DNA of 64,000 bases, from positions 151,652,221-151,716,220 of the forward strand of contig OZ024930.1 in assembly GCA_964017235.1 (NCBI GenBank). The letters are read 5' to 3'. Positions 1,545 to 61,509 of the stretch are shown piece after piece. The notes under the pieces were generated by a model that worked only from the letters and a program-made list of their open reading frames with translations, made no database searches and had not been told where the DNA came from. Origin of the DNA: Sabellastarte sp. h YS-2021. Its lineage: Eukaryota; Annelida; Polychaeta; Sabellida; Sabellidae. Both the position numbers and the translations under genes were made by a program. Positions within the stretch are counted from its first letter, which is position 1; each line of letters opens with the position of its first letter.

Positions 1545-1595
1545 TACCCAAAGTTGTGGATTATAAAAGTGTCTTTTAGAGATTTGCTGCAGAAG

Positions 1596-2862
1596 ATGGA
1601 TGTATTACTAAGGACCATGTGGATAACTCACAGATCTAGAGGATTTCTCATAACATTTTGTGTACTATTTCTTCCTCACCTGTGTTCTGGATTGAATTTA
1701 GAGTTTTCAGTCCCACACACAGCAAAGTATGGTCATGAAATTGGATCTTTGGCACTTTCAGGATTAAAACATAAAGCTTGTTATCTGTATAGGCCAATGG
1801 GACCATTAGATCCCACAAAATATTTCAATGTAACATCATCAGGTCACTTATATACAGTGTCATCAGTATCTGCATTAGTGCACCAACGTGTCGATATTGT
1901 AGTGAAATGTGAATCTGGAGTAGAATCAAGCACCTATTCCTCTCAGCATACAGTGACCATCCATATAGATAATGGCCATTCTGCGCTATTCTTTCCTTTG
2001 CCAAGCTACGATGGTCACTTGGAAGAAAACCTACCAGCTAATTCTGTTGTGCAGGGCCTAGAGAATCTCTTTGCTTCAACTGAGTCATATAGTCATGCAG
2101 ACATAGATTATACAATAATTTCAGGTGCTAAAAATGTATTCAAACTTGTGAAGCACAAATGGGGTATTCTCACCGTAGTCTCCCTGCAACCCATAGATCG
2201 AGAAGAAACCCCTTCTTATCTGTTGCAAGTCAAAGCATGCTTAAAGCCTTGTATAGCCTCAGCTGTAGCACACATAACCATACAAATAGATGATGTTAAT
2301 GACAATGTGCCATATTTTGACAAGTCTGATTATTATACTACTATTTCTCAAAGTACACCTGCACCCAGTACTGTGTATTTTATTGGGGCAAATGATTTGG
2401 ATATTGATACAGTCACCTATTCCATGGAGCCGAGTGACACATTTTCCATTGATACTTCACGGGGTCATGTCCTATTAAACCCAGGGAAAAAACTAATGTC
2501 ACCATTATATGATCTGACTATTCAGGCAACTGATTCAGATGGCCAGAAAAGTAGAAAAGTACGCCTTCATATTCGTGTCGATGTTGTTCTTAGATTCAGA
2601 CCACATTCCGTTAAACGTCGCTCAAAGAGAAATAGCCATCCAGCTAAAGAGGTAGAAATTCCAGAGAGTTATATCAATACACTGGTGCGGATTAACAAGA
2701 GTGCCACAGATCGCTTCAGATTTAAAGAGCCGTCCCCGGATATGCTGGAAATCAATCGAGTTACTGGGATAGTGAGCCTGAAAAGTGGATACAAACTGGA
2801 TTATGAGACCCAGGCAGTCATTGAATTTACTGTGGTGATAACTAAGATGAATGATCCATCCT
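1596..2862 (+). CDS. CadN: Type III classical cadherin (CadN-like), exon with signal peptide and first cadherin repeats
   Basis: First coding exon of a neural-cadherin-like adhesion receptor: a cell-surface, calcium-dependent homophilic adhesion protein. It gives 422 codons plus one base (phase 1). The ATG at 1596 is chosen because the upstream part of the frame opens only at TTG; the ATG at 1617 has A at -3 and is an equally good alternative. Residues 17-32 form a hydrophobic signal peptide ending in CSG. Degenerate cadherin-like repeats follow. DVNDN at 233-237 closes the second; the third ends without a canonical calcium motif. A basic RRSKR at 341-345 resembles a furin site. A further repeat contains LDYE and continues into the next exon. 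The exon ends at T|GTAAGT, and joining to 28842 makes a Tyr codon and keeps the frame. Assignment rests on the order and wording of repeats across all four exons, which resemble Drosophila N-cadherin as I know it. Confidence 0.85.
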
Positions 2863-2965
2863 GTAAGTACTACTGTAGAAATTTTCATTTTATTTTGTTC
2901 AGAGAGAAGTAAAATAAGATCTACTAAATCTGTGTAAACCACATTAGGTTCATTGATCAATGTCT

Positions 2966-11895: not shown

Positions 11896-13189
11896 TTAGA
11901 ATAAGAAATCTAAAATTCGCCAGGAATCTAAAAATCGCCACCTAAAACCTTAGTTAATTTTATGAAGAAAATGATGTTTTTATCTAAGAATTGGTATTTT
12001 TCAGTTCAAAAAGCCATAATTGTATCCACCAGATAGCATCCGGTGGATACTATGGATTTCGCTTCGTTATGCCGCCGCCGCAGTGTGTAGAGAGATTTCA
12101 CCGTTACCGCTCTAACGAAAAAAACATTATAGGTAGCCTTCTCAGATTTGCAGGATATATTCATAACCATAAAATCTTGCCTGGGAATATTTTTGGTCTC
12201 ATTTTGAAAAACAAGATGGCCGCCACGGGCGTTTTTTCGACTTTCAGCAAGGACTTTTGTTGGCCCTCTAGAGTAAAGGGTATTATAGGTAGAGATCTCA
12301 AATTTGCAGGGTATGTTGCTCATTACAAAATCTTGACTGGGAATATTTTTGGCCTCATTTTGAAAAACTAGATGGCCATCACGGGCATTTCTTTGTCAGT
12401 CATAAAAAGTGCTTATATCTCCCTTATTATTGGTCCTAGAGTTTTGGGATGGTAAACCAACCTATAGGAAATCATGGGCTGGGAATCTTTTGGCATGGTC
12501 AGATTTGACCTTGGACCCCTCCTTCAAGGTCAAACGAGGATAGCCAAACTTAAAAGTGCTTATAACTCGCTTATTATTGGTCCTAGAGGTTTGGGATGGT
12601 AAACCAACCTACAGGAAATCATGGGCTGGGAATCTTTTGATATGGTCTGATTTGACCTTGGACCCCTCCTTCAAGGTCAAATGAGGATAGCCAAACTTAA
12701 AAGTGCTTATAACTCGCTTATTATTGGTCCTAGAGGTTTGGGATGGTAAACCAACCTATAGGAAAACATGGGCTGAGAATCTCTTTGTGTGGTCATTTTT
12801 AAGCGTCCCGCAAGGGACGCTTGTTTGTGTATGGGAGAGCTTCAGGCTCCATTTTGTTTTCCTTATAACTCTGTAACCGTTAGGCGGATTCTTTTCAAAT
12901 TTGGCAGGTTTAGGCAGTAGCCTTGGGGAATTTTTTTGAATATGCTGCAGTGACATTTCAACCAATCAGAGAGGTCACATGACCAAAAATGTCTTTTTTC
13001 GGTGGGGAAGCTTGTCCGGATGATAACTTGAAAGGAATTTTATCAATTCACCTGAAACTTGGCAAATACATTCATTCTATTAAAATCTGGAAATCATTAG
13101 ATTTTGGCATTGATTGGTCAAGAAATGGCCGAGTAATTAATGATTAATTAATCATTACGAATTTTCCAAATAAGGAAAACACAAAAATG

Positions 13190-14110
13190 TTTATATCTCG
13201 AAAACCGTGCTAGATAGAGCGATTTCGGCGAAATTTTTGACCCACAGGGTATCTTTGCAGGGTAGCCATGTCAATTTTCAAAATATTTTTGTCTCGCCCA
13301 AAATGGCGGCCATTTTGAATTTTCGAAATTTTCGCAAAAATTGCAAAACACAAAAATGCTTATATCTCAAAAACCGTGCTAGATAGAGCAATTTCGACAA
13401 AATTTTTACCCCGCAGGATATCTCTGCGGAGTACTTTTCCCAATTTTCAAAAAATTTTTGTCTCGCCAAAAATGGCGGCCATTTTGAATTTTTGAAATTT
13501 TCACAAAAATTGCAAAACACAAAAATGCTTATATCTCGAAAACCGTGCTAGATAGAGCGATTTCGACGAAATTTTTGACCCAAAGGGTATCTCTGCAGAG
13601 TAGCCATGCCAATTTTCAAAAAAAATTTTGTCTCGCCAAAAATGGCGGCCATTTTAAATTTTCAAATTTTTCGCAAAAATTGCAAAACATAAAAATGCTT
13701 ATATCTCGAAAACCGTGCTAGATAGAGCGATTTCGACGAAATTTTTGGCCCACAGGGTATCTCTGTAGGGTAGCCATGCCAATTTTCAAAAAAATTTTGT
13801 CTCGCCAAAAATGGCGGCCATTTTGAATTTTGGAATTTTTCGCAAAATTGCAAAACACAAAAATGCTTATATCTCGAAAACCGTGCTAGATAGAGCGATT
13901 TCGACGAAATTTTTGACCCACAGGGTATCTCTGCAGAGTAGCCATGCCAATTTTCAAAAAAATTTTATCTTGCCAAAAATGGCGGCCATTTTGAATTTTC
14001 GAATTTTTGCGCAAAAATTGCAAAACACAAAAATGCTAATATTTCGAAAACCATGCTACATAGAGCGATTTCCACGAAATTTTTTATCTTCAGGGTATCT
14101 CTGCAGAGCA
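13190..14110. repeat. ~169-bp tandem repeat, 5 units (GGCGGCC family)
   Basis: ATGGCGG recurs at 13303, 13472, 13642, 13811 and 13979 (spacing 168-170). Each unit has 'tatatctcgaaaaccgtgc', 'gatagagcgatttc' and 'cagggtatctctgc'. It is related to the larger ~168-bp array in intron 2. Open frames on both strands here are products of the repeat and not genes. Confidence 0.85.
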
Positions 14111-14120
14111 GCTATCCCAA

Positions 14121-17100
14121 AGAGCTTTCACTTGGTGAAGTTTCAGACCCATAGCTAATTACTCACCTACTCAAAATGAGTAAATGCGAATTATCTCTAA
14201 AAGTATTGCAGATAGCCAATTTTTCTCAAATAACTCATTCACCTACTTTTGGGAGAGCTTTCACTTGGTGAAGTTTCAGACCCATAGCTAATTATTTACC
14301 TACTCAAAATGAGTAAATGCGAATTATCTCTAAAAGTATTGCAGATAGCCAATTTTTCTCAAATAACTCATTCATCTACTTTTGGGAGAGCTTTCACTTG
14401 GTGAAGTTTCAGACCCATAGCTAATTACTCACCTACTCAAAATGAGTAAATGCGAATTATCTAAAAGTATTGCAGATAGCCAATTTTTGTCAAATTAATC
14501 ATTTACCTACTTTTGGGAGAGCTTTCACTTGGTGAAGTTTCAGACCCATAGCTAATTACTCACCTACTCAAAATGAGTAAATGCGAATTATCTCTAAAAG
14601 TATTGCAGATAGCCAATTTTTCTCAAATAACTCATTCACCTACTTTTGGAAGAGCTTTCACTCTGTGAAGTTTCAGACCCATAGCTAATTACTCAACTAC
14701 TCAAAATGAATAAATGCGAATTATCTCTAAAAGTATTGCAGATAGCCAATTTTTCTCAAATAACTCATTCACCTACTTTTGTGAGAGCTTTCACTCTGTG
14801 AAGTTTCAGACCCATAGCTAATTACTCACCTACTCAAAATGAGTAAATGCGAATTATCTCTAAAAGTATTGCAGATAGCCAATTTTTCTCAAATAACTCA
14901 TTCACCTACTTTTGTGAGAGCTTTCACTTGGTGAAGTTTCAGACCCATAGCTAATTACTCACCTACTCAAAATGAGTAAATGCGAATTATCTCTAAAAGT
15001 ATTGCAGATAGCCAATTTTTCTCAAATAACTCATTCACCTACTTTTGGGAGAGCTTTCACTCTGTGAAGTTTCAGACCCATAGCTAATTACTCACCTACT
15101 CAAAATGAGTAAATGTGAATTATCTCTAAAAGTATTGCAGATAGCCAATTTTTCTCAAATAACTCATTCACCTACTTTTGGCAGAGCTTTCACTTGGTGA
15201 AGTTTCAGACCCATAGCTAATTATTCACCTACTGAAAATGAGTAAATGTGAATTATCTCTAAAAGTATTGCAGATAGCCAATTTTTCTCAAATAACTCAT
15301 TCACCTACTTTTGGGAGAGCTTTCACTTGGTGAAGTTTCAGACCCATAGCTAATTATTCACCTACTCAAAATGAGTAAATGCGAATTATCTCTAAAAGTA
15401 TTGCAGATAGCCAATTTTTGTCAAATTAATCATTTACCTACTTTTGGGAGAGCTTTCACTTGGTGAAGTTTCAGACCCATAGCTAATTACTCACCTACTC
15501 AAAATGAGTAAATGCGAATTATCTCTAAAAGTATTGCAGATAGCCAATTTTTCTCAAATAACTCATTCACCTACTTTTGGGAGAGCTTTCACTCTGTGAA
15601 GTTTCAGACCCATAGCTAATTACTCACCTACTCAAAATGAGTAAATGCGAATTATCTCTAAAAGTATTGCAGATAGCCAATTTTTCTCAAATAACTCATT
15701 CACCTACTTTTGGGAGAGCTTTCACTCTGTGAAGTTTCAGACCCATAGCTAATTACTCACCTACTCAAAATGAGTAAATGCGAATTATCTCTAAAAGTAT
15801 TGCAGATAGCCAATTTTTCTCAAATAACTCATTCACCTACTTTTGTGAGAGCTTTCACTTGGTGAAGTTTCAGACCCATAGCTAATTACTCACCTACTCA
15901 AAATGAGTAAATGTGAATTATCTCTAAAAGTATTGCAGATAGCCAATTTTTCTCAAATTAATCATTCAGCTACTTTTGGGAGAGCTTTCACTTGGTGAAG
16001 TTTCAGACCCATAGCTAATTACTCACCTACTCAAAATGAGTAAATGCGAATTATCTCTAAAAGTATTGCAGATAGCCAATTTTTCTCAAATAACTCATTC
16101 ACCTACTTTTGGGAGAGCTTTCACTCTGTGAAGTTTCAGACCCATAGCTAATTACTCACCTACTCAAAATGAGTAAATGTGAATTATCTCTAAAAGTATT
16201 GCAGATAGCCAATTTTTCTCAAATAACTCATTCACCTACTTTTGGCAGAGCTTTCACTTGGTGAAGTTTCAGACCCATAGCTAATTACTCACCTACTGAA
16301 AATGAGTAAATGTGAATTATCTCTAAAAGTATTGCAGATAGCCAATTTTTCTCAAATAACTCATTCACCTACTTTTGGGAGAGCTTTCACTTGGTGAAGT
16401 TTCAGACCCATAGCTAATTACTCACCTACTCAAAATGAGTAAATGCGAATTATCTCTAAAAGTATTGCAGATAGCCAATTTTTCTCAAATAACTCATTCA
16501 CCTACTTTTGGGAGAGCTTTCACTCTGTGAAGTTTCAGACCCATAGCTAATTACTCACCTACTCAAAATGAGTAAATGCGAATTATCTCTAAAAGTATTG
16601 CAGATAGCCAATTTTTCTCAAATAACTCATTCACCTACTTTTGTGAGAGCTTTCACTTGGTGAAGTTTCAGACCCATAGCTAATTACTCACCTACTCAAA
16701 ATGAGTAAATGCGAATTATCTCTAAAAGTATTGCAGATAGCCAATTTTTCTCAAATTAATCATTCACCTACTTTTGGGAGAGCTTTCACATGGTGAAGTA
16801 TCAGACCCATAGCTAATTACTCACCTACTCAAAATGAGTAAATGCGAATTATCTCTAAAAGTATTGCAGATAGCCAATTTTTCTCAAATAACTCATTCAC
16901 CTACTTTTGGGAGAGCTTTCACTTGGTGAAGTTTCAGACCCATAGCTAATTACTCGCCTACTCAAAATGAGTAAATGCGAATTATCTCTAAAAGTATTGC
17001 AGATACCCAATTTTTCTCAAATAACTCATTCACCTACTTTTGGGAGAGCTTTCACTTGGTGAAGTTTCAGACCCATAGCTAATTATTCACCTCAAAATGA

Positions 17101-17180
17101 GTAAATGTGAATTATCTCTTAATAGTATTGCAGATAGCCAATTTTTCTCAAATAACTCATTCACCTACTTTTGGCAGAGC
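14121..17180. repeat. 133-bp tandem satellite, 23 units
   Basis: The marker 'agagctttcac' recurs at 14121, 14254, 14387, 14518, 14651, 14784, 14917, 15050, 15183, 15316 and 15449, up to 17176. The spacing is 133 bp, with one 131-bp unit. Units differ at few positions (for example cttggtg versus ctctgtg) and contain 'taattactcacctactc' and 'aaaagtattgcagatag'. The low divergence points to recent expansion or homogenisation. Confidence 0.92.
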
Positions 17181-17689
17181 TTTCACACACGAAAATGAAA
17201 ATTGTGAATATCTCGGAAAAGCTATTTCTTTTGCTTTAATGCTCGGCGGGAGATACACACCGCGGCAGTGGTTTTGACAAAAATTTTTGTCTCCCCAAAA
17301 ATGGTGGCCATTTTGAATTTTCAAAGTTTTTGCAAAACACAAAAATGCTTATATCTCGAGAACCGTGCTATATGGAGCGAACTCAACAAAATTTTAGACC
17401 TGCTGGGTATCTCTGCAGAGTAGCCATGCCAATTTTCAAAATATTTTTGTCTCGCCAAATATAGCGGACATTTTTAATTTTTTTATTTTTTGCAAAACAC
17501 AAAAATGCTTATATCTTGAAAACCGTGCTAGATAGAGCAGACTGCGCTTACTTTGGTTGCCACAACAGTATAAGGCTAGAAACGAAGCATTTTCTTAATA
17601 CTTTAGCACTCACCTTTATATCCTTTTCGGGACTTTTTATTTTTGCTATGCAAAAACATTATCTTTTTTTTTTGCGAGCGATCCTCTAG

Positions 17690-18760
17690 TTGACCTTGTA
17701 CCGCTCCTTTAAGGTCAAACGAGGATAGCCAAACTTAAAAGTGCTTATAACTTGCTTATTATTGGTCGTACAGGTTTGGTATGGTAAAGCAACCTATAGG
17801 AAATCATGAGCTGGGAATCTTCTGGTGTGGTCAGATTTTAGCTTGGACCCCTCCTTCAAGGTCAAACAAAGATAGCCAAAGGTAAAAGTGCTTATAAATC
17901 ACTTATTATTGGTCATACAGGTTTGGGATGGTAAACCAACCTATAGGAAATCATGGGCTGGGAATCTTTTGGTGTGGTCGGATTTGACCTTGGACCCCTC
18001 CTTCAAGGTCAAACGAGGATAGCCAAACTTAAAAGTGCTTATAACTCGCTTATCTTTGGTCCTAGAGGTTTGGGATGGTAAACCAACCTATAGGAAATCA
18101 TGGGCTGGGAATCTTTTGGTGTGGTCTGATTTGATCTTGGACCTCTCCTTCAAGGTCAAACAAGGATAGCCAAACTTAAAAGTGCTTATAACTCGCTTAT
18201 TTTTGGTCCTAGAGGTTTGTTATGGTAAACCAACCTATAGGAAATCATGGGCTGGGAATCTTTTGGTGTGGTCTGATTTGACCTTGGACCTCTCCTTCAA
18301 GGTCAAACAAGGAGAGCCAAACTTAAAAGTGCTTATAACTCACTTATTATTGGTCCTAGAGGTTTGGGATGGTAAACCGACTTATAGGAAATCATGGGCT
18401 GGGAGTCTTTCGGTGTGGTCGGATTTGACCTTGGACTCCTCCTTCAAGGCCAAATGAGGATAGCCAAACTTGAAAGTGCTTATAACTTGCTTATTATTGT
18501 TTGCAATGTGAAACCACCTTATAGGAAATCATGGGCTGGGAATCTTCTGATGTGGTCTGGTTTGACCTTGAGCCCCTCCTTCATGGTCAAATGAGGACAG
18601 TCAAACTTAAAAGGGTTTATAACTCATTTATTATTGATCCTAGAGGTTTGCAATGTGAAACCAACTTGCAAGATATTGTGGGCTGGGAATCTACTGATGT
18701 CCGATTTGACCTTTGACCTCTCCGTCAAGGTCAAACGATGGTTCACTGGCTTTGGAGAGT
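17690..18760. repeat. 147-bp tandem satellite, ~7 units (continuation)
   Basis: These are the same units as at 12430-12795: 'aagtgcttataactcgctta', 'gtcctagaggtttggg', 'gaaatcatgggctgggaatc' and TTTGACCTTG ... CAAGGTCAAA. The last units are more diverged. It is the right part of the array split by the 133-bp element. Confidence 0.88.
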
Positions 18761-18871
18761 TGTCTTTCCAGTGGATACAGATTTGCACCGGTTCTCCGAT
18801 GCGTAGGTCTAGTTTATTTTCACATGTGGCCAATTTCAGATATGTGGCGAATTTTAGATTTCTTACTCTAA

Positions 18872-39502: not shown

Positions 39503-41173
39503 TCAAATAAATGTTTGTGGAAGATTTGGTGGCCCTGAGAAGGGCCTATAAAAATTATCAGCTATTGCTGATCTGCTGGATGGCTGACTACTGGTTTCCT
39601 GAGGCTGGTTGGTCTGGTTGGGTGGTTGATGTGTCTTCGACTGGCTGGAACTGAGGTGTGTTGATGACACTGAAGCTGACATCATGTGACATGTTTGGAA
39701 TGTTGCTGAATAGTGGCTGTCAACTGAGGGTGGATTCGTTGGTGGTGAGAGGGTGAATCCTGTTTGTTTGCTGGTCAGTGGTGGGCTGCCTTGGCGTCTA
39801 ATGTCTGGCATTGTAGCGGGTGGTGACATGACACGCAGCTGTGATGATGAAGTGGTGCTCTATGAAGTTTGCTGACTGTGTTGCTGTGGGGTTGCTGCTG
39901 CTGCTGTACTGGCTGCTGTGACTGTATGGAATGCTGTGGTTGAATTGCCTGCTCTTGCTGCATCAGGTACAAGTGTTGCTGTGGCTGCATGCTTTGCTGT
40001 GGCTGCATGCTTTGCTGTGGAGTGTGTTGCTGTGGCTGCATGCTTTGCTGTGGAGTGTGTCCGATGATCTGCTGCTGAGCTGGTGCATGCGGCTGTGTGA
40101 ATGTCTGTTGAAAGTGCTGCTGTGACTGCTGCAATTACTGCTGTGCAAGCCCTTGCGGTACGTGTGTAAAAGTCTGTTGCTTCTGGTGATGTGATGCCTG
40201 CATCTGTGTGAGACATTGGGTAATGGTGTGATGTCGAGGCTTGGCTGTAGGCGCCAATGTTCGTGCCCAGGCTTGTCTTCAAACTTTTTCATCACAATGT
40301 CTTTTAACTCTGTTATCCCCCTCTGCGATTCGGCAAGAGCTGCTTGGAGGTCTGAATCTGCTAAACTTGACGTCACACTGACAGCATGGGATTGGGTCGT
40401 AGGCGTATATGTATCCAGGTGCGAGATGTCTGAAGGGTTGACTCTGGACGAGAAGTATCCTGGAACGGTTCCATCCGTTTGGATGATGAGCCTGCTGCTG
40501 TACTGGCTTGAGAAACAGACCCCTTGAGAGCCCTGAATTCACTTTTTGCTGTAAGATGGCACTCGATGTGGTCCCCGAGGAAGTCAAAATTGTCTCTGGT
40601 CCATTTCTGCCTCTCTGTCAGCACTGGTTCCCCCTGGCCAGACTTTATGTGTGTGACTTTCCCGAAGAGTGTGTGCTGGCTCTGGAACCACTTTTGGCAG
40701 GCATCTTTATTCAAATTGTTCTCACAAAACTTTGCCCACACAGCCTCCCTCTTGGACCTATCCTTCGGCTTGTAGTCCATTAAACGCTTGTTAAGAATTT
40801 CATTGTCACGCAGAAAGTCCACTAACTTCTGTTCCTGCTCAGCACTGAAGAAAACTGGGGGTTTCTTGCTCCTTTTGTCAGCCTTGTCCTTCCCTGTGGC
40901 CTTGCCCTTCTGTGTAGCTGCAGCAGCTTGTGTATCCTGTGTATCCTCATCACTTGTATCTGATTCGTGCTGTGTCTCCAGCCCAATGTCACCCTGTTCT
41001 GTATCCGACATCTCCAGAAAATCCTCCACTCTCACCACCAACTCCTCCACCCCAGCTGCCTGCTGAGTCTCTGGTACACAACTTAATTCATCCACCTCTG
41101 GAGTCCTGGTCCTGATGGACATCCTGTCTGTCTCCTGACTGCCTTTCCTCTTGGACCTCTTCTTTGGTGGCAT
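39503..41173 (-). pseudogene. Harbinger-associated Myb/SANT-MADF-like protein with Q-rich tail, inactivated
   Basis: In Harbinger elements this second protein binds DNA and helps bring the transposase to the nucleus. It reads from ATG at 41173. Residues 3-10 are a basic nuclear signal (PKKRSKRK) and residues 50-82 are acidic. Residues 110-200 form a Trp-containing helix region (W146, W162, W191), best matched to Myb/SANT or MADF trihelix domains. The first frame ends at 40373. Coding-like sequence continues in other frames: DLQAALAESQRGITELKDIV at about 40310-40360, then a Gln-rich stretch at about 39870-40190 with an in-frame stop near 40135, and a Ser/Pro/Thr-rich end at 39503. At least two frameshifts and one stop are needed to read it through. 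Opposite-strand open frames are shadows. Confidence 0.75.
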
Positions 41174-45749: not shown

Positions 45750-46360
45750 TAAGATGTACATGAGAAATCTGAATTAAGCATCCCGCAAGGGACGCTTGTT
45801 TGTGTATGGGAAGCCTTCAGGCTCCGCCGGCTCCGCATTTTGTTTTCCTTATAACTCTGTAACCGTTAGGCGGATTCTTTTCAAATTTGGCAGGTTTAGG
45901 CAGTAGCCTTGGGGAATTTTTATGTCAGCTGACTTGTCAGTCAGTCAGCTGACATTATGTCGTCACTCTGCGGCGTGGGCGTACGCATACGCGTACGCGT
46001 CCGCGTGAACAACTTCTCCTCCAAAACTACAAGGCCTAGAGACGTGCTGTTTTTTTTAAAAGATACCTTATCTATCGAGGATGAAAAATTGTTCAAGGCA
46101 TGCAAATCTGTCTCTTCGTCTGTTTGCTAGAGACATTACAAGGGGGGTACCCCCACCAAAAGTGTGAAAATTTCAACACTTAATCAGAATTTTCTCAGTG
46201 ACTATTGCAGGGATTTCTCTCATATCTTGCATATATGTACTAGGCCACAGGTAGATTCTCTTGTGTGAGTATGAGACCTGGATCTGTCTTACTTTTTTTT
46301 TAATAAATTTTTTTAATAATTTTTAATGCATTAAAATTCATGAAATCATGCACAAAATCA

Positions 46361-49316
46361 TTTATAACTTGAAAAGTGTTGCATTTAGAGCATTTTGTTA
46401 AAATATGTTATTCAGCTACTTTTTTCATAGCTACAATATGGTGAGTAAGTTGGGTGCCTGTCTCAATAGCTAAGTGAGTAATAGCTACTTTTGGGCTTTT
46501 CAGTAACTTCCATCATGAGTAAAATCACTTGTAACTTAAAAACTATTGCATTTAGAGAATTTCGTATAAATATGTTATTCAGCTACTTTTGGGTCAGGTA
46601 TAACATAGTAAAATTTTAGACCTGTAGCTCATGGCATAGCTGAGTAATAGCTACTTTTAGGTTATCACTGTTGAGTAAATCGCTTATAACTTCAAAACTA
46701 TTGCATTTAGAGAATTTCGTATAAATATGTTATTCAGCTACTTTTGGGTCAGCTATAACATAGTAAAATTTCAGACCTGTAGCTCATGGCATAGCTGAGT
46801 AATAGCTACTTTGAGGTTATCACTGTTGAGTAAATCGCTTATAACTTGGAAACTATTGCATTTACAGTATTTTGTTTCAATATGTTATTCACCTATTTTG
46901 GGATCAGCTATAACATAGTGAAGTTTCAGATCTGTGGCTCATTGCATAGCTGAGTAATAGCTACTTTGAAGTTCTCACTATTGAGTAAATCACTTGTAAC
47001 TTAAAACCTATTGCATTTAGAGAATTTCGTATAAATATGTTATTCAGCTACTTTTGGGCCAGCTATAACATAGTGAAATTTCAGATCTGTAGGTCATGGC
47101 ATAGCTGAGTAATAGCTACTTTAAAGTTCTCACTATTGAGTAAATCAGTTGTAATTGGAAAACTATTGCATTTAGAGAATTTCGTATAAATATGTTATTC
47201 AGCTACTTTTGGGTCAGCTATAACATAGTAAAATTTCAGACCTGTAGCTCATGGCATAGCTGAGTAATAGCTACTTTTAGGTCATCACTATTGAGTAAAT
47301 CAGTTGCAACTTGAAAACTATTGCATTTACAGTATTTTGCTTAAATATGTTGTTCACCTACTTTTGGGTCAGCTATAACATAGTAAAATTTCAGACCTGT
47401 AGCTCATTGTATAGCTGAGTAATAACTACTTTGAGGTTCTCACTATTGAGTAAATCAGTTGTAATTGCAAAACTATTGCATTTAGAGAATTTCGTATAAA
47501 TATGTTATTCAGCTACTTTTGGGCCAGCTATAACATAGTGAAATTTCAGATCTGTAGGTCATGGCATAGCTGAGTAATAGCTACTTTGAAGTTCTCACTA
47601 TTGAGTAAATCAGTTGTAATTGGAAAACTATTGCATTTAGAGAATTTCGTATAAATATGTTATTCAGCTACTTTTGGGTCAGCTATAACATAGTAAAATT
47701 TCAGACCTGTAGCTCATGGCATAGCTGAGTAATAGGCTACTTTTAGGTCATCACTATTGAGTAAATCAGTTGTAACTTCAAAACTATTGCATTTACAGTA
47801 TTTTGCTTAAATATGTTGTTCACCTACTTTTGGGTCAGCTATAACATAGTAAAATTTCAGACCTGTAGCTCATTGCATAGCTGAGTAATAACTACTTTGA
47901 GGTTCTCACTATTGAGTAAATCACTTGTAATTGCAAAACTATTGCATTTAGAGAATTTAGTATAAATATGTTATTCAGCTACTTTTGGGTCAGCTATAAC
48001 ATAGTAAAATTTCAGACCTGTAGCTCATGGCATAGCTGAGTAATAGCTACTTTTAGGTCATCACTATTGAGTAAATCAGTTGTAACTTGAAAACTATTGC
48101 ATGTACAGTATTTTGCTTAAATATGTTGTTCACCTACTTTTGGGTCAGCTATAACATAGTAAAATTTCAGACCTGTAGCTCATGGCATAGCTGAGTAATA
48201 GCTACTTTGAGGTTATCACTGTTGAGTAAATTGCTTATAACTTGGAAATTATTGCATTTAGAGTATTTTGTTTCAATATGTTATTCACCTATTTTGGGGT
48301 CAGCTATAACATAGTGAAGTTCCAGACCTGTGACTCATTGCATAGCTGAGTAATAGCTACTTTGAAGTTCTCAATGTTGAGTAAATCACTTATAATTCGA
48401 AAACTATTGCATTTAGAGAATTTAGTATAAATATATTATTCAGCTACTTTTGGGTCAGCTATAACATAGTAAAATTTCAGACCTGTAGCTCATGGCATAG
48501 CTGAGTAATAGCTACTTTTAGGTTATCACTGTTGAGTAAATCACTTATAACTTGGAAACTATTGCATTTAGAGTATTTTGTTTCAATATGTTATTCACCT
48601 ATTTTGGGGTCAGCTATAACATAGTGAAGTTCCAGACCTGTGGCTCATTGCATAGCTGAGTAATAGCTACTTTGAAGTTCTCACTGTTGAGTAAATCAGT
48701 TGTAATTGGAAAACTATTGCCTTTACAGAAATTTGTGCAAATATGTTATTCAGCTACTTTTGGGTCAGCTATAACATAGTGAAATTACAGACCTGTAGCT
48801 CATGGCACAACTGAGCAATAGCTATTCTCAGGCACTGACTGTTGAGTAAATCGGCTATAACTTGAAAAATATTGCATTTGGAGTATTTTGTTGAAATATA
48901 TTGTTCACCTACTTTTGGGTTAGCTATAACATAGTGAAATTACAGACCTATAGCTCATGGCATAGCGGAGCAATAGCTATTTTCAGGTTCTCACTATTGA
49001 GTAAATCAGTTGTAACTTGAAAACTATTGCATTTACAGTATTTTGCTTAAATATGTTGTTCACCTACTTTTAGGTCAGCTATAACAGAGCAAAAATTCAG
49101 ACTTGTAGCTCATTGCATAGCTGAGTAATAGTTACTTTGAGGTTCTCACTCTTGAGTAAATCAGTTGTAACTTGAAAACTATTACATTTAGAGTATTTTG
49201 TTAAATATGTTATTCACAGACGTTTTGGTCAGCTATAACATAGTGAAATTGCAGACCTCTGTGTCATGGCATAGCTGAGCAATAGCTTCTTTCAGGTTCT
49301 CACTGTTGAGTAAATC
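46361..49316. repeat. 155-bp tandem satellite, ~19 units
   Basis: 'ttgagtaaat' recurs at 46671, 46826, 46981, 47136, 47291 and 47446 and then at 155-bp steps to 49306. Units contain 'gaaaactattgcatttagag', 'ttcagctacttttgggtcag', 'atttcagacctgtagctc' and 'agctgagtaatagctac'. They are related to the 133-bp units. Confidence 0.92.
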
Positions 49317-49319
49317 ATT

Positions 49320-50135
49320 GTATCCGACCTGTAGGAAATCATGGGCTGGGAATCTGTTAATATGGTCCGATTTGACCTTGGAACCCTCCTTCAAGGTCAA
49401 ATGAGGATAGCCAAACATAAAAGTGCTTATAACTCGCTTATTATTGGTCCTAGAGGTTTGGAATGAAAACCAACCTATAGAAAATCATGAGCTGGGAATT
49501 TTTTGGTGTGGTCGGATTTCACCTTGGACCCCCTCCTTCAAGGTCAAATGAGGATAGCCAAACTTAAAAGTGCTTATAACTCGCTTATTGTTGGTCCTAG
49601 AGGTTTGGAATGGAAAACCAACCTATAGAAAATCATGGGCTGGGAATCTTTTGGTGTGGTCGGATTTCACCTTAGACCCCTCCTTCCAAGTCAAACGAAG
49701 ATAGCCAAACTTAAAGTGCTTATAACTCGCATATTATTGGTCTTGGAGGTTTGGGATGGTAAACCAACATATAGGAAATCATGGGCTGGGATTCTTTTGG
49801 TGTGGTCAGATTTGACCTGGGACCCCTCCTTCAAGGTCAATTGAGGATAGCCAAACTTACAATTGCTTAGAACTCGCTTATTATTGGTCCTACAGGTTTG
49901 GGATGGTAAACAAGCTACAGGAAATCATGGGCTGGGAATTTTTTTGTGTGGTCGGATTTGACCTTGGACCCCTCCGTCAAGGTCAAACAAGGATAGCCAA
50001 ACTTAAAAAGTGCCTATGACTCATTTATTATTGGTCCGAGAGGTTTGGGATGGTAAACCATCCTAAATTCTTTGGCTGGGAATCTTTTGGTATGGTCAGA
50101 TTTGACCTTTGGACCCCTTCTTCGTGGTCGAACGA
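49320..50135. repeat. 147-bp tandem satellite, ~5.5 units
   Basis: Directly abuts the 155-bp array at about 49320 ('taaatcattgtatccgacct'). Same unit as elsewhere, with 'gggctgggaatct', 'tttgaccttgg' and 'caaggtcaaa'. Two unrelated satellites thus sit head to tail in one element. Confidence 0.88.
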
Positions 50136-51381
50136 GGATATTGCATTTATAGTATTTCTCTAAATATTTTTAACCTACTTTTTACACTTAAACAATTACC
50201 TTGTTACTTTATTTCATAATACCATTTGCAGGGCACAACTTTTTTGTCCTTTTCTTCTGTCAGCTTCGGAATATCTTTCGAACATGCTGTTCAGTTACCA
50301 TTTACTGTATTTCTGTACAGCCCTTTCCCTGATAATTATGCTTTCCTCTCATTATCACCATCACAAATCAAAAACATTCAGTCAGCTGACACAGTGCCCG
50401 TTCACGGGCACTCTCCTCTTGTTTTGAATATGCTGCAGTGACATTTCAACCAGTCAGAGAGGTCACATTACCAAAAATGTCTTTTTTCGATGGGGAAGCT
50501 TGTCCGGATGATAACTTGAAAGGAGTTTTATCAATTCACCTGAAACTTGGCAAATACATTCATTCTTGCGGGACGCTTGTTTGTGTATGGGAGACCTTCA
50601 GGCTCCGCCGGCTCCGCATTTTGTTTTCCTTATAACTCTGTAACCGTTAGGCGGATTCTTTTCAAATTTGGCAGGTTTAGGCAGTAGCCTTGGGGAATTT
50701 TTTTGAATATGCTGCAGTGACATTTCAACCAATCAGAGAGGTCACATGACCAAAAATGTCTTTTTTTCGATGGGGAAGCTTGTCCGGATGATAACTTGAA
50801 AGGAGTTTTATCAATTCACCTGAAACTTGGCAAATACATTCATTCTATTAAAATCTGGAAATCATTAGATTTTGGCATTGATTGGTTAAGAAATGGCCGA
50901 GTAATTAATGATTAATTAATCATTATGAATTTTCCAAATAAGGAAAACACAAAAATGCTTATATCTCGAAAACCGTGCTAGATAGAGCGATTTCGACGAA
51001 ATTTTTGACCCACAGGGTATCTCTGCAGAGTAGTCATACCAATTTTCAAAAATTTTTGTCTCGCCAATAATGGCGGCCATTTTGAATTTTCGAATTTTTC
51101 GCAAAAATTGCAAAACACAAAAATGCTTATATCTCGAAAACCGTGCTAGATAGAGCGATTTCGACGAAATTTTTGATCCACAGGGTATCTCTGCAGAGTA
51201 GTTATCCCAAGTTTGAAAAAAATTTTTGTCTCGCCAAAAATGGCGGCCATTTTGAATTTTCGAATTTTTGCACAAAAATTGCAAAACACAAAAATGCTAA
51301 TATTTCAAAAACCGTGCTACATAGAGCGATTTCGACGAAATTTTGGATCTTCAGGGTATCTCTGCACAGCAGCTATCCCAA

Positions 51382-52585
51382 AGAGCTTTCACTTCGTGAA
51401 GTTTCAGACCCATAGCTAATTGCTCACCTACTCAAAATGAGTAAATGCGAATTACCTCTAAAAGTATTGCAGATAGCCAATTTTTGTCAACTAATTCATT
51501 CACCTACTTTTGCAAGAGCTTTCACTTGGTGAAGTTTCAGACCCGTAGCTAATTACTCATCTACTCAAAATGAGTAAATGCTAATTATCTCAAAAACTAT
51601 TGCGGATACCCAATTTTTATCAAATAACTCATTCATGTACTTTTAGGAGAGCTTTCACATGGTGAAGTTTCAGACCCATAGATAATTACTCACCTACTCA
51701 AAATGAGTAAATGCGAATTATCTCTTAAAAGTATTGCAGATAGCCAATTTTTCTCAAATAACTCATTCACCTACTTTTGAAAGAGCTTTCACATGGTGAA
51801 GTTTCAGACCCATAGCTAATTACTCACCTACTGAAAATGAGTAAATGCGAATTATCTCTAAAAGTATTGCAGATAGCCAATTTTTCTCAAATAACTCATT
51901 CACCTACTTTTGGGAGAGCTTTCACTCTGTGAAGTTTCAGACCCATAGCTAATTACTTACCTACTCAAAATGAGTAAATGCTAATTATCTGTAAAAGTAT
52001 TGCGGATACCCAATTTTTATCAAATAACTCATTCATCTACTTGTGGGAGAGCTTTCACTTGGTGAAGTTTCAGACCCATAGCTAATTACTCACCTACTCA
52101 AAATGAGTAAATGCGAATTATCTGTAAAAGTATTGTAGATAGCCAATTTTTCTCAAATAACTCATTCACCTACTTTTGGGAGAGCTTTCACTCTGTGAAG
52201 TTTCAGACCCATAGCTATTTATTCACCTACTCAAAATGAGTAAATGCGAATTATCTGTAAAAGTATTGCGGATACCCAATTTTTATCAAATACTCATTCA
52301 TCTACTTGTGGGAGAGCTTTCACATGGTGAAGTTTCAGACCCATAGCTAATTACTCACCTACTGAAAAATGAGTAAATGCGAATTATCTTTAAAAGTATT
52401 GCAGATAGCCAATTTTTCTCAAATAACTCATTCACCAAATTTTGGGAGAGCTTTCACTTGGTGAAGTTTCAGACCCATAGCTAATTATTCGCCTACTCAA
52501 AATGAGTAAATGTGAATTATCTCTTAATAGTATTGCAGATAGCCAATTTTTCTCAAATAACTCATTCACCTGCTTTTGGAAGACC
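51382..52585. repeat. 133-bp tandem satellite, 9 units
   Basis: 'agagctttcac' runs from 51382 in 133-bp steps to 52581 (there agacctttcac). Units are more varied than in the 23-unit array (extra forms with 'gcggatacccaatttttatc'). Confidence 0.9.
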
Positions 52586-53076
52586 TTTCACACACGAAAA
52601 TGAAAAATTGTGACTATCTCGGAAAAGCTATTTCTTCTCCTTTAATGCTCGGCGGGAGATACACACCGCGGTCTTGAAAAAAATTTTTGTCTCCCCAAAA
52701 ATGGTGGCCATTTTGAATTTTCAAAGTTTTTGCAAAACACTAAAATGCTTATATCTCGAAAACCGTGCTATATGGAGTGAACACAACAAAATTTTTGACC
52801 TGTTGGGTATCTCTGCAGAGTAGCCATGCCAATTTTCCAAATATTTTTGTCTCGCTAAATATAGCGGACATTTTTAATTTTTTGCAAAACACAAAAATGC
52901 TTTTATCTTGAAAACCGTGCTAGATAGAGCAGACTGCGCTGACTTTGGTTGCCACAACAGTATAAGGCTAGAAACGAATACTTTAGCACTCACCTTAATA
53001 GTTTATATCCTTTTCGGGACGCTTTGTTTTTGCTATGCAAAAACATTATCTTTTTTTTTTGCGAGCCATCTTCTAG

Positions 53077-54327: not shown

Positions 54328-55188
54328 CTTTATACCTTTGCTAGCCTTGTGTCAGGCTGACGATTTCAGCTTTGTTCTTTTGGCCAAAGGTTAAACATGA
54401 GATTTTATAGACTTTTTAACAGCTGGAGGTCATATTGGAACATACCGAGTTTCCCATTTGTTAAGCTAAGACCCACAACCTCTGAGCTATAAGGTGATGA
54501 TTTGTTAGTAATCTATGGTAACTGCTCCATCATGGGTGACCTAATATATTTGTGGGGCCGGAAGTTTAAATCTGCAGTTTGTTTTTGTCACATAGGAAAT
54601 TTCTCAACTTTTTTTATATAAAGACAGGTAAGTACAAGGTTTGAGCCACTTACCAGACTAGTATATCCTTTCTCTGCTGTTCTTGTCTAATTCATGAAAA
54701 ATTAATTACAGCTTGTATCAGTAGGAGACTTAATAATGCAATACTAAATAAAAAAGTGAAATAAAAAATCCTCTGTGATAATGAGGGAGTATTGATGAAA
54801 GCATACCTTCTTCATCAGCATAAAAGCATTTTTTGGCCATCCAAAGACTGACAAACAGAGAATGGCATTTCTTTGGAAGCAAATTTGTAAGATTTAGTGG
54901 GACACTATTGGAAGTCAAGCATTAAATCGATAATGGAACGGTGTCTGTGAAAAGAACAGGGCCCCTGTCTAGTTTGATCTACGGGCATAAAATTACTGTC
55001 AATGTTTCAGGCAAGTTGTTAGCCTTTCAAGAAGGCACATGTTTTAGCTGGTGTACATCTGATTCAGCTCAAAACTGCATTTTCACCCTTCTCCTGCATC
55101 TATATGACCTTTATCAGACCATGAATAATCCATATATCTTAGAGAATAAGCCCTAAAATTTCATCTTGTTATGGAATAGAATCTATTT
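54328..55188. other. Intronic sequence without recognised features
   Basis: AT-rich. Weak SINE-like phrases at about 54430-54660 ('gtttaaatctgcag', 'aaggtttgagccac') are too decayed to call. Confidence 0.4.
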
Positions 55189-56950
55189 GTATCCACCAGA
55201 TGCCTCCGGTGGATACTTTGGAAATCCAACCTATAGGAAATCATGGGCTGGGAATCTTTTGGTGTGGTCGGATTTGAGCTTGGGGCCCTCCTTCAAGGTC
55301 AAACGAGGATAGCCAAACTTAAAAGTGCTTATAACTCTCTTATTATTGGTCCTAGAGGTTTGGGATGGTAAACCAACCTATAGGAAATCATGGACTGGGA
55401 ATCTGCTGGTGTGGTTGGATTTGACCTTGGGCCCCTCCTTCAAGGTCAAACAGGATAGCCAAACTTAAAAGTGCTTATAACTCGCTTATTATTTGTAATA
55501 GAGGTTTGGGATGGTAAAACAACCTATAGGAAATCATGGGCTGGGAATCTTTTGGTGTGTTCAGATTTGACCTTTCGTTCAAGGTCAAACGAGGATAGCC
55601 AAACTTAAAAGTGCCTATCACTCACTCATTGTTAGTCCTAAAGATTTGGGATGGTAAGCCAACCTATGGGAAATCATGGACTGGGAATCTTCTGGTGTGG
55701 TTGAATTTGACCTTGGGCCTCTCGTTCAAGGTTAAACGAGGATAGCCAAACTTGGAAACGGTATGAGATAGAGCAATTTTGACAAAAGTTTTGACCCTCA
55801 GGGTTTCTGCAGAGTCTATTGGTGACTTTTCCCAAAAATTGCTTTCCCGCCATTTTTAGCGGCCATCTTGAATTTCTACGTAAAATGCAAAAACGCATTT
55901 ATCTTGGAAACTCGGAGACCCAGAGGGTATCTGCTGTGTGTACTGGTGACTTTTTGCAAAAATCACTTTCCTGCCATTTTTGGCGGCCATCTTGAATTTC
56001 TGTATAAAATGCAAAAACGTATTTATCTCAGAAACAGTGCGAGTTTGAGCGATTTTAACGAAATTTTTGACCCGGAGAGTATCTGCAGACTCTACTGGTG
56101 AATTTTTGCAAAAATCGCTTTTCCGCCATTTTTGGCGGCCATCTTGAATTTCTGCGTATAACTTAAAAACTCATTTATCTCGGAAACAGTGTGAGCTAGA
56201 GCAATTTCGATGAAATTTTTGACCCCCAGGGTACCTGCAGAGTTTACTGGCGCCTTTTCCTAATAATCGGTGTCCCGCCATTTTTCGCAGCCATCTTGAA
56301 TTTCTGCGTAAAATGCAAAAACGCAGCCATCTTGAATTTCTTCATAAAATGTAAAAACACATTTATCTCAGAAACGGTGCGAGATAGCGCGATTTTGACC
56401 AGAGTTTTGACCCGGAGGGTATCTGCAGTATCTACTGGCCACTTTTCAAAAATATCGCTTTTTGGCGGCCATCTTGAATTTCTGCTTGCAATGCTAAAAC
56501 TCATTTATCTTGGAAACGGTGCAAGTTAGAGTGATTACAACAAAAATTTTGACCCACAGGTGTGTACAGGGTCTACTGGTGGCTTTTCCCAAAAATCATT
56601 TTCCAGACATTTTTGGGCAGCTATCATGAAGTTCTGCATAAAACGCAAAAATGCATTTATCTAGATAACAGTGTGAGATAGAGCGATTTTAACAAAATTT
56701 TTGACCCGCAGGGTATCTGCAGGGTTTCCTGGCGAGTTTTCCCAGAAATCTTTTTCCTGCCATGTTTGGCGAAACAAAAGAAAAAAACAAAAACACATTC
56801 ATATACAAAACCTTGCATTTTGGCACAAATGGAAAAACATATTAAACCCAGGAAAATGTTCATTTCCACAAAATCATTAATACTTATTGGGACGCTTTGT
56901 TTTTGCTTTGCAAAAACAATTTCTTTTTCTCTTGCGAAGTAATACTCTAG
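55189..56950 (+). mobile_element. Chimeric hairpin-CTAG element: 147-bp units plus ~125-170-bp GGCGGCC units
   Basis: The head hairpin GTATCCACC (55189-55197) / GGTGGATAC (55208-55216) is the same as at 12021. About 3.7 147-bp units run to 55755. Then come about seven units with 'ggcggccatcttgaatttc', 'aaaatgcaaaaacgcattta', 'atctcggaaacagtgcgag' and 'gacccggagggtatctgcag'. The right end has GTTTTTGC-ttt-GCAAAAAC (56899-56917) and CTAG at 56947-56950, which is the end type of the 133-bp elements. It lies about 110 bp before the fourth coding exon. Confidence 0.7.
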
Positions 56951-61278: not shown

Positions 61279-61509
61279 TTAGAGTAAGAAATCTAAAATT
61301 TGCCACATATCTGAAATTCGCCACAGGTGAAAATACTAATAAAATAAATGAATTGTGGTGAGATTTGTTGACTGTATAGTAAATTAAGGCTTTTTGAACT
61401 GAAAAATACCAATTTTTAGACAAAAACATCATTTTCTTCATAAAATTAACTAAGGTTTTAGAGGTGGCGAATTTTAGATTCCTGGCAAATTTTAGATTTC
61501 TTACTCTAA
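61279..61509. mobile_element. Palindromic MITE, 231 bp, nearly complete
   Basis: 'ttagagtaagaaatctaaaa' at the left and 'ttttagatttcttactctaa' at the right are inverted. The arms extend ~45 bp through 'tttgccacatatctg' and 'attcctggcaaa'. TGGTA lies beside each end and may be a target duplication, but it is offset by one base. It matches the split copy at 11896-18871, in reverse orientation. Confidence 0.8.

Follow-up and report, generated by a model that had tools for sequence, protein, structure and literature searches.

A MITE interrupted by a 147-bp-satellite element that is itself interrupted by a 169-/133-bp-satellite element: a nested locus with two HINE-like inserts

Layout of the nest

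Three layers of inserted DNA were found between positions 11896 and 18871 of the window, which is the whole stretch of 64,000 nucleotides analysed here (C4:151652221-151716220 of a 1.786-Gb genome). The outermost is a MITE in two parts (11896-12019 and 18813-18871). It encloses element A, which carries a 147-bp satellite (12020-18812), and A in turn encloses element B, which carries 169-bp and 133-bp satellites (approximately 12798-17689). All parts are on the plus strand. An earlier note had described a MITE split at 12020/18813 by a 147-bp-satellite element, whose own array was split at 12800/17690 by a 133-bp-satellite element. The nest is confirmed with near-exact coordinates: the MITE halves align to an intact sister copy, and the inner insert is bounded by the ends of its own family. 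The three layers are real, and their local order is readable.

The sister MITE, delimited by alignment with the split copy, is found on the minus strand at 61279-61509. The left part of the split copy, in an alignment that includes the sister and seven fetched copies, runs up to the A of an A|TTTA target and is 93.7% identical to sister positions 61509-61384. In the right part, 18815-18871 is 94.7% identical to 61335-61279. The seven fetched copies were taken from 39 other matches listed, and align to the sister over 230-231 bp. As a possible target duplication of the MITE, TA flanks both sides in 9/9 copies as judged by eye, although this TA also fits the terminal repeat. At the insertion point the intact MITE reads AA-TTTA, and the right flank of the split copy reads TTTA and then jumps, with 46 bp (sister 61336-61381) missing just 3' of the right junction. 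This stretch is kept in all eight other copies examined (the sister plus the seven fetched), and the shortened join has no match elsewhere in the genome at up to one mismatch. TA is found immediately before the lost 46 bp and again at its end. The first join is an A|TTTA join with no target duplication, plus a 46-bp deletion, and due to the missing MITE sequence it is not seamless. The 46 bp may have been lost with the insertion of A, after it, or before it, privately in the split copy.

Element A starts TTGTATCCACC and ends in CTAG, with the 3' end reading GCGTAGGTCTAG, and these ends recur in other copies. A 5' subterminal repeat and its inverted copy (GTATCCACC...GGTGGATAC) are found at 12022-12050 on the plus strand (predicted DNA fold -8.9 kcal/mol, z -4.0). 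The left arm of the 147-bp array covers 12405-12797 (+), where TRF reports 12405-12787 and alignment to the consensus continues to the border; the right arm, also found with TRF, covers 17690-18738 (+) and starts at monomer position 0. The 3' terminus (18768-18812, +) consists of the subterminal AGTGGATAC, which at 18770-18778 is complementary to the A 5' subterminal repeat in 8/9 bases, the palindrome GCACCGG-TTCT-CCGATGC with one mismatched pair (fold z -0.89, not significant), and CTAG. In relatives of A the palindrome reads GCATCGG-TTCT-CCGATGC.

Element B (12798-17689, +) is also HINE-like, and extends from TTTAAGCGTCCC to GATCCTCTAG; it starts TTTAAGCGTCCCGCAAGGGACGCTT and ends TTTGCGAGCGATCCTCTAG. 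Its first base is uncertain by a few bases, as the Ts of a T run at the left border (12796-12800) are assignable to either side, and this run also hides the A|T test for B. A 5' palindrome, AAGCGTCCC-GCAA-GGGACGCTT, is found at 12801-12822 (+; DNA fold -11.1 kcal/mol, z -6.0). It is followed by two arrays identified with TRF, one of 5.6 copies of the 169-bp unit (13176-14120, +) and one of 23.1 copies of the 133-bp unit (14121-17186, +). The 3' subterminal region of this copy reads GGGAC and then a changed stretch, and a different fold is predicted for its 3' end (z -2.05). A relative of B in the window has GGGACGCTT at 53016-53024 and a 3' palindrome, GTTTTTGC-TAT-GCAAAAAC, at 53026-53044.

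Family ends of A and B in the genome

The 5' end of A was read in 28/29 other fetched loci and the 3' end in 27/29; among the loci with the 5' end, L025 and L026 have a flank in common. The base before TTG is A in 23/28 copies and also at the MITE site, so A may insert between A and T. As the similarity query for A 3' ends contained TT, the frequency of TT was counted by exact pattern instead: 863 exact A 3' ends are present genome-wide, and TT follows in 815 (94.4%). An uninterrupted copy of A without B was read end to end at C11:79693487-79695971 (2,485 bp), with the A 5' region at 1-378, the 147-bp array at approximately 383-2411 and the A 3' region at 2412-2485. In the stretch fetched for a second copy, no 3' end was seen. 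B-like matches are present inside or beside A in 4/29 fetched loci around A 5' ends and 5/29 around A 3' ends, as counted with a 133-bp query to which the 154- and 155-bp satellites, being related, may match as well. At two loci (L016 and L034) a tail-to-head arrangement is seen, with element A starting right after the CTAG of another element.

For B, TTTAAGCGTCCC is present in 20/20 fetched 5' ends and GATCCTCTAG, with its CTAG border, in 17/17 fetched 3' ends. These 20 and 17 ends come from 39 other matches listed for each, all found by similarity to the ends of the window copy. The flanks are mostly unrelated, the exceptions being one flank common to L072, L074 and L075 and another common to L078 and L079. 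The fetched 3' ends are followed by TT in 16/17 cases and by TC in one (L104). Genome-wide, there are 7,889 exact B 3' ends, with TT following in 7,797 (98.8%). When the flanks of A and B ends were compared with eight satellites of the window, 9/92 matched at E 1e-3 (3/37 for B and 6/55 for A), not all of them directly at the border. With these satellite flanks and the B-like matches near A ends, nesting or close neighbourhood of A and B elements is not rare here.

Joins, divergence and order of insertion

Against the 147-bp consensus, the left array arm can be followed to monomer position 2, and the right arm picks up from position 0; close to its end, the left arm is missing 2 bp. Across the second join the array keeps its 147-bp register to within 2 bp and shows no target duplication, which is the outcome of a check that the earlier note had proposed. 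Its statement that the broken ends match on both sides at each level holds in that the MITE halves and the array arms align, but the MITE is without 46 bp and the left arm without 2 bp. A composite made by array recombination, with B placed between two adjacent 147-bp elements by unequal exchange, is highly improbable. In its favour, 147-bp blocks adjoin other arrays in the window (49324-50140 and 55219-55753). Against it, the arms of the nest keep their register, the two borders of B are those of its family and TT follows the right one, a single 5' end and a single 3' end of A are present, and two other loci, read on both sides, show repeats in the same A-B-A layout.

The 147-bp monomer contains 14 TT positions. 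The junction GCGATCCTCTAG-TTGACCTTG is found genome-wide in 10 exact instances (the window's own included) and in 23 at one mismatch. Three other junction loci were fetched, of which L130 and L132 continue as 147-bp array (95% and 91%) and L131 does not. Both of the loci that continue also carry 147-bp repeats to the left of B (read as L136 and L137). L136, on the reverse strand of C1 near 60.54 Mb, consists of an A 5' region (92%), less than one monomer, the B 5' region from base 17, with the first 16 bases absent, and a 147-bp repeat from position 1; an A 3' end follows approximately 0.9 kb beyond the end of B. L137, on C3, has an A-like 5' region that matches weakly (70%), approximately 2.7 monomers, a B of 3,255 bases (versus 4,892 in the window copy), and then a monomer from position 1. 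GTCAT precedes B in the left arm of all three nests (the one at 11896-18871, L136 and L137), and the consensus GA is lacking there. This common 2-bp gap may derive from the insertion or from the site. The further nests were found by searching with the window's junction, and are therefore no measure of site preference.

These loci also bear on whether A and B moved together, that is, whether B entered A first and A then carried B into the MITE. An A element that contains B still has both of its own ends and would be able to transpose as a single rolling-circle unit, and A with B does occur elsewhere, as L136 and, in a more distant form, L137. However, neither resembles a donor. L136 is 92% like the window copy in the A 5' part plus left arm, its left arm of less than one monomer compares with 2.6 in the window copy, it is without the first 16 bases of B, and its flank is different; L137 departs in its weak A 5' region and in the length of its B. 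Among 40 matches scored, of 916 candidates, no other carries the left A-B junction or reaches beyond B into the 147-bp arm on its left, which argues against a joint move of A plus B. Such a move is thus considered quite unlikely.

Differences from the majority of fetched copies amount to 6/180 positions (3.3%) for the MITE, with 8 other copies, 7/284 (2.5%) for A (5/211 with 28 copies and 2/73 with 27), and 6/867 (0.7%) for B (2/378 and 4/489, with 10 copies each), where the counts are small, the relatives are the best matches of the window copy, and the A and MITE stretches are cut one base off the border. The difference between B and A has a Fisher p of 0.022, that between B and the MITE 0.009, and that between A and the MITE 0.58; A copies also vary from one another, with a 5' median of 3.3% and a maximum of 22%. 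The divergence is consistent with B being the youngest of the three, with the MITE and A not separated. Since A is the older of the two under either scenario, divergence fits an insertion of B ahead of A's move into the MITE as well as one after it, and it says nothing against a joint move; the nesting, too, is compatible with both.

The order proposed in the earlier note, MITE, then 147-bp element, then 133-bp element, is supported by the nesting itself and by the family borders at the ends of both inserts. Three successive transpositions, of the MITE, then A, then B, are very probably the origin of the locus. Matching MITE halves, recurrent borders, TT after the 3' ends, the register of the array and the graded divergence all point to this history, as do the uninterrupted copy of A, the two other loci with B at the same monomer position between 147-bp repeats, and the Rep/PIF1 frame at L133 described below. 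First, a MITE with terminal inverted repeats would have inserted. A HINE-like element with the 147-bp satellite (A) would then have inserted between A and TTTA within the MITE, the 46 bp of neighbouring MITE sequence having been lost then, later, or previously in this copy alone. Lastly, a second HINE-like element (B, 169-/133-bp) would have entered one 147-bp monomer at a GATTTGACC site, just ahead of its TT, presumably when A already sat in the MITE. Both families may be mobilised in trans by Helentron proteins, through rolling-circle transposition.

An opposite nesting is seen at 45774-53076. Here a B-type element, with its 5' region partly duplicated, is interrupted at 45925-50418 by a palindrome-ended insert (GTCAGCTGAC ends) that contains a 155-bp array and a 147-bp block. 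B-type elements thus receive insertions as well as make them, and because of this opposite nesting, the order read at 11896-18871 is one of events at that locus, and not of family ages.

Further arrangements of satellites are present in the window. The 147-bp block at 49324-50140 is flanked left and right by 155-bp sequence (right arm score 48, versus a shuffled maximum of 27). An inserted A was considered for this block, but its sole 5' sign is 8 bases that are nearly contained in the 155-bp unit, and an A 3' end was not seen there. At 55184-56950 there is a chimera, in which an A 5' end and 147-bp array are followed by a 152-bp array and a 3' end that is 79% like that of B. Two groups of satellites are clearly related, 169/167/152 and 133/154/155/157 (154 and 157 in reverse orientation). 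The 147-bp unit shares approximately 30 bp with the 169-bp unit (score 36 versus a shuffled maximum of 31), and the 146-bp unit has weak matches only. One core common to all satellites of the window is unsupported in pairwise comparisons of 10 units against first-order shuffles. Elsewhere in the window, a 452-aa open frame with a cadherin domain (Pfam E 2.8e-16) is found at 1554-2912 (+), and a 266-aa open frame, a putative MADF-type protein, at 40373-41173 (-).

The locus is a readable stratigraphy of three transpositions, and nests of this kind are markers for ordering bursts of satellite-carrying transposons. A much-copied HINE-like family, with its 7,889 exact 3' ends, inserts into the arrays of another family, and the nesting of B in A is one route by which satellites differing in length become neighbours. 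The view of the mechanism is unchanged by the nest. A broader reading is that HINE satellite arrays act as landing pads at a preferred monomer position, with families repeatedly invading one another and patching arrays together. This is doubtful; the counts that bear on a B hot spot in 147-bp monomers come from the junction search. If it were true, satellites would be spread and mixed by mutual HINE invasion.

HINE-like features and comparison with known systems

Both inserts look like HINE-type elements (non-autonomous Helentrons), a kind that is already published and that is abundant in this genome. HINEs are described, in the parts of PMC7492417 and PMC4067079 drawn on here, as having subterminal inverted repeats, of which the 5' one has a further inverted repeat close by, a palindrome at the 3' end, central repeats, a preference for TT and no target duplication. 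The 5' subterminal repeat with a nearby complementary inverted repeat is present in both A (z -4.0) and B (z -6.0). The TT preference is seen in both (815/863 for A and 7,797/7,889 for B), target duplication is absent from the joined MITE and from the joined 147-bp monomer, and the 147-, 169- and 133-bp arrays are central satellite-like repeats. Relatives of A and B show a clear 3' repeat and palindrome, but those of the window copies are imperfect.

The Helitron Rep domain is found at 24 places in the genome. At one of these, a 2,244-aa open frame (L133:2533-9264) carries Helitron_like_N, PIF1 and an Exo_endo_phos match below the Pfam cut-off (21.4 bits versus 24.5), and from these domains it is a candidate autonomous Helentron. 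A and B ends were absent at the 2/24 Rep-domain places checked, where the stretches read may fall short of the element ends; the sole match, 11 bases to the start of A with one mismatch and without the palindrome, was judged to be chance.

Canonical Helitrons have a 5' TC and a 3' CTRR. The 3' CTAG of A and B fits CTRR, and there is no target duplication in either case. However, the 5' ends of A and B, reading TTGTATCC and TTTAAGCG, are palindromic and do not start with TC, and the two elements also differ from canonical Helitrons in having TT on the right and a central satellite array. Canonical Helitrons insert between A and T, as stated in the part of PMC4067079 used here.

DINE-1 of Drosophila and the HINEs of mites have, as described in the same part of PMC4067079, subterminal inverted repeats, with another inverted repeat close to that at the 5' end, a 3' stem-loop and a TT target. 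A and B resemble them in this, with the 3' repeat and stem-loop imperfect in the window copies. Central repeats are shown for the mite HINEs, whereas in the copies of A and B the arrays make up most of the insert; the likeness is one of description. Satellite-bearing HINEs are also already published, and no novelty is claimed for nested ones. Cg_HINE of Crassostrea gigas is described, in the relevant part of PMC7492417, with a left module, satellite arrays, a right module with a palindrome, TT and no target duplication, and a similar layout is seen here, with the palindrome imperfect in the window copies, the likeness being by description. A and B differ in being nested in one another, and the word "nested" is absent from the main text of that paper. 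Cg_HINE arrays come from one cluster or, exceptionally, from two that follow each other, and B, with its 169-bp array followed by its 133-bp array, resembles the two-cluster type (PMC7492417, same part).
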